Assembly: GCA_021162805.1 (NCBI GenBank)
Contig: JAGGXZ010000083.1
Coordinates: forward strand, 1 to 35,240
Reading direction: 5' to 3'
Source: Candidatus Poribacteria bacterium
GTDB lineage: Bacteria > Poribacteria > WGA-4E > B28-G17
DNA length: 35,240 nt
The notes below the pieces were generated by a model. It had not been told where the DNA came from. It saw only the letters and a program-made list of their open reading frames with translations, and ran no database searches. Within the stretch, counting starts at the first letter, position 1; every line of letters begins with the position of its first letter. Shown piece by piece: positions 3,933 to 24,746 of this stretch. The translations under genes were made by a program, and so were the position numbers.

Positions 3933-3957
3933 TCGCTCTTATTTCCCTTGAGTGTAG
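3933..3957. repeat. 25-base direct repeat, copy 2
   Basis: Identical over 25 bases to 1287-1311. On the minus strand it ends 30 bases upstream of the ccmE start codon. No -10/-35 pair is obvious within it. Confidence 0.6.
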
Positions 3958-3972
3958 CGGTTATCCATTAGG

Positions 3973-4050
3973 AGGAACGAGGAGAAGGGAAATCCGCTGC
4001 ACGTTCAACGTTTAACGTTGTAACGTTTTCCGTCCTGGTTCCTCGTTCCT
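3973..4050. repeat. inverted arms enclosing AACGTT-type tandem words
   Basis: An 11-base arm AGGAACGAGGA (3973-3983) is perfectly inverted at 4040-4050. Between them, 4001-4027 carries four AACGTT/ACGTT words with a period of 6-8 bases. The right arm reaches the stop codon of the octaheme cytochrome gene (4050-4052). The same AACGTT words recur at 10060-10089. Confidence 0.6.
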
Positions 4051-10059: not shown

Positions 10060-10089
10060 GTGAACGTTGGAACGTTAAACGTTCAACGT
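10060..10089. repeat. AACGTT-type repeat overlapping a stop codon
   Basis: Four AACGTT/AACGTG words with a period of 7-8 bases. The TGA of the retropepsin-like gene (10083-10085) lies inside the repeat. The same words occur at 4001-4027. Confidence 0.6.
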
Positions 10090-10460
10090 GCGAGCTCATA
10101 GAAATATGCCAGGCCCTTAGGCCTTGTGAACTCCAGTTCGCCGGTCGTAGGGTCCAATTTTAACCCTAGCGATTCCAGCGTCTCCACCCCGATAACGGTT
10201 TGGGCTCCCTCAAAGGCGATCCCTATTGCGGGCGCCTCCACATCCCCGATCCCGACCACTATCCCGTAGGCTTTAGCTTTGACCCTTCTTCCATCTCCTA
10301 GGTGCAGATCAATCTCCCGTATGGGTCCCCACGCCCCTACCTCCTCAAGGACCTCCTCCGGCAAAACGGTATAGGTTGCACCCGTGTCTATAAGCACGTT
10401 TTTCAGCTTCACGCTTGCTTTGCTTCCCTTTATCGTGACATCTGCGTATATATGTCCCAT
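10083..10460 (-). CDS. retropepsin-like (clan AA) aspartic protease family protein
   Basis: The 125-residue protein has the single-domain retropepsin layout: the active-site motif VLIDTGATYTVLP (about residues 23-35), a flap-like strand region (IDLHLGDGRRVKAKAYG), and the second conserved block TVIGVETLESLGLKLDPTTGEL. Such proteins act as homodimers, each giving one Asp of the catalytic pair. The start ATG overlaps the end of ahbC by one base, so it belongs to the heme operon. Its substrate is unknown. Small proteins of this kind often travel with DUF433- or DUF2283-type genes, and that may be the reason it is here rather than a role in heme synthesis. Confidence 0.82.
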   Translation of the reverse strand: MGHIYADVTIKGSKASVKLKNVLIDTGATYTVLPEEVLEEVGAWGPIREIDLHLGDGRRVKAKAYGIVVGIGDVEAPAIGIAFEGAQTVIGVETLESLGLKLDPTTGELEFTRPKGLAYFYELAR

Positions 10461-17597: not shown

Positions 17598-18050
17598 GAA
17601 CTTAACTTCAACCTCCGGAGGGGTTTTCAACGCTTTTCGCCAGCGCTGTAGTGATAAGCCCCGTGCCTACCGGACTCGAGGGCACGCACGGGGCATGCCC
17701 TCTATCATGCCTGATTATACCAAATCATTGAAAAGCCCTGCAACCTCCGGGAAATCCTTCGGATTCATGGCGGCCTTGTAGGAGTGGGTATGGTCTTTAT
17801 GGCAGATGTTGCAGCCGAAGATCTTATGTGTCGTCCCGTGTCAGGAGGATATCCATGGCAGGATTTGCAGCCCCATTTCTTTTTATCGTGACATGCCGGC
17901 ATGCAGTTTCCGGTATCGGATCGTATTCCACCCCGCCTATATCGATCGTGCCGCTGTGGACATCCTCATCATGCTGTCTGCCCTTATGGCATGAGTCACA
18001 GTTCAGTTTTTCCTTTTCGACGTGGAACCTGTGTTTTCCGGTGTTGGAAG
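17580..18050 (-). pseudogene. decayed multiheme cytochrome c, 5' truncated, frameshifted and interrupted
   Basis: Read on the minus strand from about 18050, four heme sites appear in three different frames: NCDSCHKG, then CMPACH (CX3CH) and CKSCHGYPPDT after a first frameshift near 17908, then GCNICHKDHTHS after a second near 17837. The frame then runs MNPKDFPEV and is broken by a 121-base element at 17619-17739. Joining the two sides of that element restores KDFPEVEVKFEVMGE and a stop at about 17580, so this was the natural end of the protein. The 5' part is missing at the junction with the ModA-like fragment near 18050. Sequencing errors could explain the frameshifts but not the truncation or insertion. 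Confidence 0.75.
17619..17739. mobile_element. 121-base MITE-like inverted-repeat element
   Basis: The ends are AGGGGTTTTCAACG on the left and, inverted, AGGGCTTTTCAATG on the right. CAACCTCCGG lies directly before it (17609-17618) and one base after it (17741-17750), a 10-base target duplication. The inside is strongly structured: GCCCCGTGC (17658-17666) pairs with GCACGGGGC (17686-17694), and GGGCATGCCC is a palindrome. Removing the element and one duplicate restores the reading frame of the surrounding cytochrome remnant. The outer 36-37 bases on each side match the ends of the 1,027-base element at 20807-21833. It has no gene and would need a transposase in trans. Confidence 0.8.
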
Positions 18051-18591
18051 GCACGACCTCGCTATCACCGGGGCGGAGTATCTTCTCGACGACGGCGAGG
18101 TGAGGGGGATCGTCCGAAAGGGGGAGAGGAAAACTATTGCCTGCAGAAAATCGCCCATTCTCGTTCCCGCCAGCGATCCGGCCGATATCCGATCGCTTGA
18201 GGATATGGCGAGACCAGGAGTGTGCGTGGCCATCTCCATCATCGACTGTCTGAAAGGGATGTGGGAGGACATCTGCGGTCGGATGGGGCTTATAGATCCG
18301 ATAAGACGTAACATCACCTTTCACGCCAACGGATGTATCGCCATCGTCGAAGCCGTCGCTCAGGGAAAGGTGGACGCCGCTTTCGGCTGGACGGCGTTTG
18401 AACATCTGGCGCCCGGAAGGATCGAGGTGATACCGATGCCAGAGGATCAGTGCATCCTGCGAGGCACTTGTGTCGGATTGCTTGAATTCTCACGCAACGT
18501 GGAGGAGGCGAGACAGTTCATGGATTTCCTCACCACCGAGGAGGCGCAGGATTTCTATAGGGAATTCGGTTGGATCCCTCCGGTTTGCTAA
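18045..18591 (+). pseudogene. 5'-truncated ModA-like molybdate/tungstate-binding protein gene
   Basis: About 180 residues of a type II periplasmic binding protein remain: RHDLAITGAEYLLDDGEV, PILVPASDPADIRSLEDMARPGVCVAI, then VEAVAQGKVDAAFGWTAFEHL and the C-terminal VEEARQFMDFLTTEEAQ with FGW. ModA-type proteins bind oxyanions for an ABC importer. The N-terminal lobe start and signal peptide are absent; the upstream bases belong to the cytochrome remnant on the other strand, and the only upstream start (GTG 18022) falls in that remnant. The stop codon overlaps the stop of the glycosidase-like gene on the opposite strand. No modB or modC gene is nearby. Confidence 0.72.
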
Positions 18592-20773: not shown

Positions 20774-20802
20774 ATAATGCCATGGAGGAGGAGTTCTGTC
20801 AA
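20774..20802 (-). promoter_or_regulatory. candidate sigma70 promoter of the glycosidase-like gene
   Basis: On the minus strand TTGACA (20797-20802) and CATTAT (20774-20779) are spaced by 17 bases, with the start codon 36 bases downstream of the -10. The -35 is perfect, and it lies only a few bases from the end of the 1,027-base element. Confidence 0.55.
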
Positions 20803-20891
20803 GTTTAGGGCTTTTCAACGCTTTTCGCCATCGCTGTGGTGGTAGGCTATCTCCATGCCATCAACGCTTGTGAATACTACCCGCCCTGCGT

Positions 20892-20920
20892 TTGACATCG
20901 CTATGCCGATCTGATATAAT
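20892..20920 (+). promoter_or_regulatory. consensus sigma70 promoter inside the element
   Basis: TTGACA (20892-20897) and TATAAT (20915-20920) are both perfect and separated by 17 bases. The start codon of the only gene in the element lies 56 bases downstream of the -10. Confidence 0.85.
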
Positions 20921-20976
20921 CTGAAAGAAGGCCACCCTGCTGAAGAGTAGCCGGTCAGCTCAAGGAGGGAGAAAGG

Positions 20977-21738
20977 ATGCGCTTCACGGTGGAGGAGTTC
21001 AGGGATCTGGTGAGGGTCTTGGAGGAACATCCCGAGTGGCGCTCCGAGCTGAGAAGGGTGCTCCTTACCGACGAGCTTCTGAAGCTGCCCCAGGTGGTGA
21101 GTCGGCTCGCCGAGGAGCAGCATGCTCTGGCAGCTCAGGTTCGACAGCTAGCAGAGGAACAACGTGCCTTAGCGGCCCAGGTTCGTCAATTAGCAGAGGA
21201 CCAGCGTGCTCTGACGGCCCAAGTTCGACGGCTAACCCAGAAGGTGGACGACCTCGTCACCTGGCAGAGGGGAGAGGCTGGGAGGAGAGAGGGTGAGAGA
21301 TATGAGAGGATGACCGTCAGGAGGGGACCTGTGCTCTTCAGCGGGGGGATGGGCGGATCAACCGACAACCCCGTCGTTCAAAGGCGGCTCGTCAGATGGC
21401 TTAAGCCGATATTCGAGAGCGATAGGTTCTTGGAGACCGAGGAGGACCCGACGCTTGCGGATCTGATCTGGTGGAAGGGGGACAGGGTTGCCGTCGTGGA
21501 GATATCGTTGAAGGTCAACGGGAGGGATGTGCTGAGGGCTTCCAGGAGAGCGGAGGTTTTAAGCTCGATTGGGGTGAACGCCTTCCCCGTGGTGATAGGT
21601 GAGGATTGGGCCGGTTCGGCGGCGAAGGCTATGGCCGAGGAAAGAGGGGTTGAGTGGATGATCGCCGGCATGTCATCTGAGGGGCTGATCTCCTTCCGAC
21701 GTTTATCTCATTCCTCCCGTAGCACTTCAGGCGGATAG
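20977..21738 (+). CDS. coiled-coil protein with PD-(D/E)XK-like C-terminal domain
   Basis: The 253-residue protein has an N-terminal helical region (1-43), a coiled coil made of three 14-residue repeats (residues 44-85, [14 protein letters not shown] type; 42-base units at about 21106-21231), and a C-terminal alpha/beta domain (about 130-240) with Asp162, Glu175 and VVEISLKV. This is the layout of the DUF3782-like coiled-coil proteins thought to contain a nuclease fold, but the expected Lys after E-X is Ser177, so catalysis is uncertain. GGAGGGAGAAAGG precedes the ATG. It is enclosed by the inverted repeats of the element at 20807-21833. A related gene with intact catalytic residues lies at 24057. 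Confidence 0.75.
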
Positions 21739-21849
21739 GCGGATACATACTCCCTGGCACTCCTCATCCGGATTTAAGGACACAGGGAAGCACCCATACC
21801 ACGCCTGATTACACCAAATCATTGAGAAGCCCTATATCAAGCTCGGCGC

Positions 21850-23070: not shown

Positions 23071-24039
23071 ATGCGAAATCCGAGCCTCGTTTTCCTTCTT
23101 TCCCTCTTGATCCTTTCCGGGGCGGTTCAGGCAAAGGAATATGCCGGATATACCATTGAGGATGGCGGCCTGGCGGATGGGCCTTTGATCACACCGCTGA
23201 GGGGGAAGGTTCTTCGTTTGCTGGTGTATAGACAGGATGAATATAAATCAGTTATAAGTCGGATGAACGTCGAGGATAGATTTGAGGATTGGAAGGAGTT
23301 CAGATATGAATCCCTCGGAGTCGAAAGGGCGGAATTCATCCTACCAAGAGGGCATCTCATCTTCCACCTCGGCGGGGCGTTCGCACATAGAGGTAAATTC
23401 GTCCGGGTCAACGGGGAAAGTGAAGGGGTCAATACCTTCCCTGAGACCGACCTTAAAATATGGCTGGGATTCGCCCTGCAGCCTCACAGGCATACGACGA
23501 TCGGATATCGAATTTCCTTCCTGAGGATTAAAAAACCGATAGAGGATGGATGCGATTACGGACGCGGGTTCGCCCACGATCTGGGCGTTTATCACCGGAT
23601 GGGGCTGACGGATATGAGCTTTAAAGTGATCAATATGAGCAACGGGCTGTCCTTTAAGGAGTCCGATCTGCCGGATGAATTGAGGAGGATATATGAGCTT
23701 CAGATCGTTAGACCCCTTCAGCCGCTCGGCTTTCCCTTCACACTGGACCTGAATCTAAGGGCACCGTGGCGATTCGGGCCGAGATATGAGCTTATCCTCT
23801 ACGCCGACTGGGGCGAGAGATGGAGGTTCGGCCTGGGGTACATGCGTGAGACGCGCAGGGTAGGGGATAGATTCTGGATGATGAAGGGAGTGAAGGCCGT
23901 CGCACATCTTAGGACGAAAGACGTGGATTTCATCGGGCAGATCTACCCTCAATGGCGCCCGGCCCCGTCCTCGTTCGAGAGGGTAAGGGTAGAGGGATTT
24001 TCGCCGAAGATATCGTTGGAACTGCTCAGGAGGTTATAA
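23071..24039 (+). CDS. secreted protein of unknown function, possible outer-membrane beta-barrel
   Basis: The 322-residue protein has a signal peptide (MRNPSLVFLLSLLILSGAV then QAKEYA, cleavage after about residue 22). The rest alternates short hydrophobic and polar strands rich in aromatic residues and ends with a strand-like SPKISLELLRRL, as in proteins that form small outer-membrane barrels, but no family was recognised. I chose the ATG at 23071 with GAGGG six bases upstream; an ATG at 23065 overlapping the acpS stop would add two residues. It sits in the middle of the pdxJ-acpS run and its neighbours give no clue to function. Confidence 0.7.
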   Translation: MRNPSLVFLLSLLILSGAVQAKEYAGYTIEDGGLADGPLITPLRGKVLRLLVYRQDEYKSVISRMNVEDRFEDWKEFRYESLGVERAEFILPRGHLIFHLGGAFAHRGKFVRVNGESEGVNTFPETDLKIWLGFALQPHRHTTIGYRISFLRIKKPIEDGCDYGRGFAHDLGVYHRMGLTDMSFKVINMSNGLSFKESDLPDELRRIYELQIVRPLQPLGFPFTLDLNLRAPWRFGPRYELILYADWGERWRFGLGYMRETRRVGDRFWMMKGVKAVAHLRTKDVDFIGQIYPQWRPAPSSFERVRVEGFSPKISLELLRRL

Positions 24040-24056
24040 CACGCGAGGTGAGATTA

Positions 24057-24746
24057 ATGCTTGAATACATTGAGATCCTGGAGAGCTTTCCTGAGGAACT
24101 GAGAGAACCTATGCTTAAGCTCATCGGGAGCGTCGAAGACCGGATACTCTCCCGTCTGGAGGTGACAAGGGGGGACTTTCTCTCGCTCAGAGATGCCATT
24201 AAGGAGCTGGCTGAGGCGCAGAGGAAATCCGAGGAGAGGATAACCAAGCTGGAGGCCGCCGTTGAGAGATTGGAAGAAGCTATCGAGAAGCTGGCGGAAG
24301 CGCAGAGGAGAACGGAGGAAAGGGTCGATAAACTCGCGGAAATCGATAGATCGATTGAGATCAAGATAGGTGCCCTGGGAGCTAGATGGGGAATCGGTTC
24401 TGAAACGGCCTTTAGAAACGCGATAAGGGGCATCCTGGAAGAGGTGGGATTCCATGTGGAGAGGTATCTGAAGTTCGATGAGGAGGGGATGGTCTTCGGA
24501 AGACCGGATCAGGTTGAACTCGATATCGTGATGAGGGATAAAAAGGTGTTCCTGATTGAGATCAAATCCTCCGTAAGCAGGGGTGATGTCTCCATCTTCG
24601 AGAGGAAGGCGAGATTTTACCAGGAAAGGGAGGATAAAACGGTCGATCGTAAGATCATCATCTCGCCCTTTTTAGATCCCGGCGCTGAGGATATGGCCAG
24701 AGGATTCGGAATAGAGGTTTTCACCGATGCCAACCAGGTGAGATAG
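24057..24746 (+). CDS. coiled-coil PD-(D/E)XK nuclease-like protein (DUF3782-like)
   Basis: The 229-residue protein has a short helical head, a coiled coil of about 75 residues (30-105, KLAEAQRRTEERVDKLAE type heptads) and a C-terminal domain (about 115-229) with Asp156, Glu168 and Lys170 in VELDIVMRD...FLIEIKSSV, a complete PD-(D/E)XK signature. Such proteins are common in thermophilic bacteria and archaea and their role is not established. I chose the ATG at 24057 with GAGGTG six bases upstream; a longer frame from 23952 overlaps the previous gene heavily. It is a paralogue in layout of the gene at 20977, but lacks flanking inverted repeats. Confidence 0.8.
   Translation: MLEYIEILESFPEELREPMLKLIGSVEDRILSRLEVTRGDFLSLRDAIKELAEAQRKSEERITKLEAAVERLEEAIEKLAEAQRRTEERVDKLAEIDRSIEIKIGALGARWGIGSETAFRNAIRGILEEVGFHVERYLKFDEEGMVFGRPDQVELDIVMRDKKVFLIEIKSSVSRGDVSIFERKARFYQEREDKTVDRKIIISPFLDPGAEDMARGFGIEVFTDANQVR

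Follow-up and report, generated by a model that had tools for sequence, protein, structure and literature searches.

The window analysed here is a 35,240-bp stretch of a Candidatus Poribacteria genome (contig JAGGXZ010000083.1 of assembly GCA_021162805.1), and it holds a small MITE together with a larger unit that belongs to the same family of ends. The large unit is 1,029 bp long (20806-21834), with IS-type ends on both sides of roughly 920 bp carrying one passenger gene and no transposase gene (Table 1). Its left and right terminal inverted repeats are identical at 15 of 18 positions, and BLAST finds it as a single copy in the genome. A preliminary description of this DNA had placed an inverted-repeat element at 20807-21833; the ends are indeed present, and the span is better drawn one base wider on each side. 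We moved both boundaries outward because the MITE copies with perfect 9-bp duplications read N-AGGG...CCCT-N. Its counts of the matches between these ends and those of the 121-base element, 33/37 on the left and 32/36 on the right, are exact on recount.

Table 1. Coordinates of the large unit, its parts and the small MITE within the window
Feature	Position	Strand	Remarks
Small MITE, same family as the large unit	17618..17740	+	perfect 9-bp duplication CAACCTCCG, 17609-17617 and 17741-17749
Left copy of the decayed 9-bp target duplication, TGTCAAGTT	20797..20805	.	7/9 vs right flank
Left end TAGGGCTTTTCAACGCTTTTCGCC...	20806..20847	+	matches first 41 bp of MITE
Insert of ~920 bp in place of ~12 bp of MITE middle	20848..21767	+	boundaries approximate
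Sigma70-like promoter, TTGACA-17-TATAAT	20892..20920	+	12/12, consensus match only; within insert
Cargo gene, 253 aa	20977..21738	+	N-terminus helical, followed by a long coiled coil; C-terminal domain PD-(D/E)XK-like
Right end AGGGCTTCTCAATGATTTGG... (minus strand)	21768..21834	-	last ~66 bp of MITE
Right copy of the decayed 9-bp target duplication, TATCAAGCT	21835..21843	.	7/9 vs left flank

Other features of the window include a frame-shifted CxxCH (heme c) gene fragment on the minus strand, abutted by the small MITE (17740-18591) and overlapping an SBP_bac_11 solute-binding-protein gene that appears to be N-terminally truncated (18022-18591). A perfect 25-bp direct repeat, TCGCTCTTATTTCCCTTGAGTGTAG (1287-1311 and 3933-3957), resembles sequence inside element L054 and probably represents a further dispersed repeat family. 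A 29-nt inverted repeat, AACGTT-rich and in intergenic DNA, occupies 3999-4027 and 10063-10091.

The 121-base element belongs to a MITE family that numbers about 18 near-full copies in the genome, besides many partial ones, and no member was found in 84 other genomes of the phylum. Across the 4.35-Mb genome there are 91 occurrences of the 14-mer AGGGSTTTTCAAYG, the end motif, and none of a reversed-pattern control; solo ends are present as well. The ends of the large unit come from one MITE subfamily, a left half on one side and a right half on the other, correctly oriented, with similarity over about 41 bp at the left and 66 bp at the right as judged by alignment and BLAST limits; the limits of the insert come from alignment to 15 MITE copies and, again, from BLAST limits. 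Because the large unit retains the right part of the MITE interior and has lost the partner of that part, it probably derives from a MITE rather than the MITE from it. That the small element arose from the large one by deletion, as proposed earlier, is unlikely, since only part of the MITE interior is retained in the large unit, which is a single copy set against some 18 near-full copies of the small one. A second MITE subfamily of 167-188 bp (L018, L019, L021, L022, L023, L025, L028) carries an extra palindrome, GTAGCGAGTAGCGAGTGG..., in its interior, approximately where the large unit holds its gene.

Several MITE copies are flanked by perfect 9-bp target duplications in a fixed register, with the element taking the form given above, and two further copies have near-perfect duplications with a one-base shift. 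When a single fixed register is applied throughout, the 9-bp flanks match at 7 or more of 9 positions in 8 of 26 elements, as against 2 of 650 mismatched pairings. In the register set by the MITE copies, the flanks of the large unit (TGTCAAGTT and TATCAAGCT) agree at 7 of 9 positions, both differences being transitions; among 9-mers of the window spaced equally far apart, the background rate of such a match is 0.0019 (0.19%). We count these flanks as a target duplication, though a decayed one at 7/9 rather than 9/9. For an empty site, a pdxJ match was sought in the only genome of the same family, and none was found. ISAs1 elements commonly make duplications of 8-10 bp.

Traces of the transposase family behind these ends are found at contig edges. 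Many end motifs lie 60-270 bp from an edge, the pattern that a high-copy IS leaves when its copies are collapsed. Left-end contigs begin with a ribosome-binding site followed by the ORF MLVAGRYVHPNSLFARLSKITDYRFSRWRIYPLNKISSLLILASVCGERSLRGMWLWAVNRWEEVR, which matches PF13808 (DDE_Tnp_1_assoc; E 1.3e-6, 28.8 bits, below the curated cut-off of 32.3) and shares 33-36% identity with ISAs1 transposases of a relative from the same class. A right IS end (L105, contig C151) adjoins an ORF matching positions 266-314, the last 49, of the ISAs1 model NF033564 (E 1.2e-4, below the model's curated cut-off). Since the N-terminal and C-terminal pieces of the transposase agree on ISAs1, a known transposase family appears to own these ends, and we assign them to an ISAs1-family IS on the sequence of two termini, each scoring under its model's cut-off. 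The ISAs1 transposase next to such ends is seen as termini only, in broken or contig-edge copies. A search of this genome with NF033564 recovered no complete ISAs1 transposase, the middle of the IS being missing from the assembly, and the ISAs1 loci of relatives that we compared do not share these exact ends. The large unit had been described as having no known transposase, a statement that the ISAs1 assignment does not bear out, while the accompanying idea of one transposase common to both elements is supported by their shared ends; one IS family accounts for both repeats in the window.

The cargo gene is intact and, as first described, is a single gene of the coiled-coil/PD-(D/E)XK-like type that follows a consensus promoter. 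In an AlphaFold2 model with a mean pLDDT of 92, its product has a C-terminal domain that Foldseek matches to NucS/EndoMS, R.BspD6I and AF1548 with probabilities of 0.98-1.00, though with E > 0.01; other PD-(D/E)XK proteins also resemble this domain, and the protein as modelled has the fold of that superfamily. D162, K167, E175, D184 and R187 are invariant in an alignment of 21 family proteins. The D...E-x-K active site is not preserved, position 177 being Ser or Gly in the family; with these residues in place of the lysine two positions past the Glu, catalysis predicted from the fold is uncertain, and K167 (invariant) and K179 (common) could serve as substitutes for the usual catalytic lysine. 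Weak PADLOC and Pfam matches were rejected as coiled-coil noise, and solved structures related by sequence were limited to coiled coils. The gene had been likened to DUF3782, and it matches neither that model (PF12644, at the Pfam cut-off) nor PDDEXK_10; a true DUF3782 plus PDDEXK_10 coiled-coil gene does lie 2 kb away (23952-24746), and no IS ends were found flanking that gene. The cargo family (L184-L209) has no Pfam model above cut-off, an invariant DLIWWK, an E-x-S/G motif and a coiled coil with a very variable number of repeats. Without a Pfam model of its own and with an altered nuclease motif, it may merit a name.

Homologues of the cargo gene are scattered, mostly among MAGs of Armatimonadota/Fimbriimonadales and Acidobacteriota, and are rare in the gene's own phylum, which suggests that the family has spread horizontally by some route; none was found on plasmids or phages. 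The preliminary description had held that a lack of linked ends around other copies of the gene, or a separate transposase family with these ends that never carries it, would speak against its proposal. No bracketing ends were found at about ten paralogues in the same genome or at 26 homologue loci in other genomes, and the cargo gene is hardly ever found in the IS family that has these ends; both results count against that proposal. A truncated copy of 92% identity (C130) and an intact 60% paralogue (C119) likewise have no ends around the gene, and the fetched loci yielded no second gene-bearing pair of ends. With ends absent around all other homologues examined, the linkage of gene and ends is a single event.

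We consider it likely that the large unit is non-autonomous and of the mobile insertion cassette (MIC) type, an ISAs1-end-derived MITE whose middle has been replaced by a promoter and one gene. An ISAs1 transposase acting in trans would bind both ends, cut the unit out and insert it at cuts staggered by 9 bp. A MITE would have captured the gene, the resulting unit would be old, and the cargo protein, predicted to have a nuclease fold set on a coiled-coil stalk, would have no part in transposition. Against this reading stand the incomplete match of the flanks, the missing complete transposase and the 92%-identical fragment at C130 that lacks ends; being a single copy, the unit may or may not have transposed since it took up the gene. 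A serious contender, to which we give somewhat less than an even chance, is that the MITE inserted first and the gene entered later by an unrelated route, the gene-bearing unit never having transposed. The anatomy is the same in both accounts and the order of events alone differs, so that the confidence placed in each overlaps. Later entry fits the single copy, the ~12 bp missing from the MITE middle (an insertion with a small deletion) and a cargo family that lacks ends everywhere else examined; it predicts the same flanks, and nothing speaks directly against it. Two unrelated solo ends flanking a resident gene by chance would draw on the solo ends that do occur in the genome, but this is very unlikely given properly oriented halves of one MITE subfamily and flanks matching at 7/9 over so low a background. 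A dedicated mobile unit, in which recognition of the ends and movement are both the work of the coiled-coil nuclease-like protein, would draw on the cargo being the sole gene between the ends and on its nuclease-like fold, but is scarcely credible against dozens of elements with the same ends and no cargo gene, paralogues and outside loci without ends, ISAs1 transposase pieces adjoining the ends, and Ser or Gly at the usual catalytic lysine position. Returning to the MIC-type reading, a broader extension, in which ISAs1-end MITEs of this lineage are gene-capture shuttles spreading coiled-coil nuclease-like genes as single-gene cassettes, is speculative and improbable.

The name mobile insertion cassette has been given to units that lack a transposase and hold a passenger gene between IS ends (PMC3129680; PMC5444012), among them the qnrS2 MIC of Aeromonas (PMC5444012) and, as cited in PMC2266710, MIC231 of Bacillus cereus. 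A new type of mobile unit, as first proposed, is therefore not called for, as the MIC class already covers such units. Coiled-coil PD-(D/E)XK proteins have also been described (PMC4786415). The cargo resembles those DUF3782/PDDEXK_10 proteins in its coiled-coil stalk and PD-(D/E)XK-like domain, but differs in missing both Pfam models and in having E-x-S where E-x-K is usual. With ISAs1-family IS the large unit shares the terminal sequences of the genome's IS copies bearing ISAs1 transposase pieces; unlike them, it has no transposase gene. Like MIC231 and the qnrS2 MIC, it combines IS-type ends, no transposase and one passenger gene with a target duplication and related MITEs in the same genome, whereas its ISAs1-type ends and its cargo are different, and it is known here from one copy. 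The large unit thus matches the known MIC class, and it illustrates in a modest way how ordinary genes are acquired by transposase-less repeats in an uncultured bacterium.
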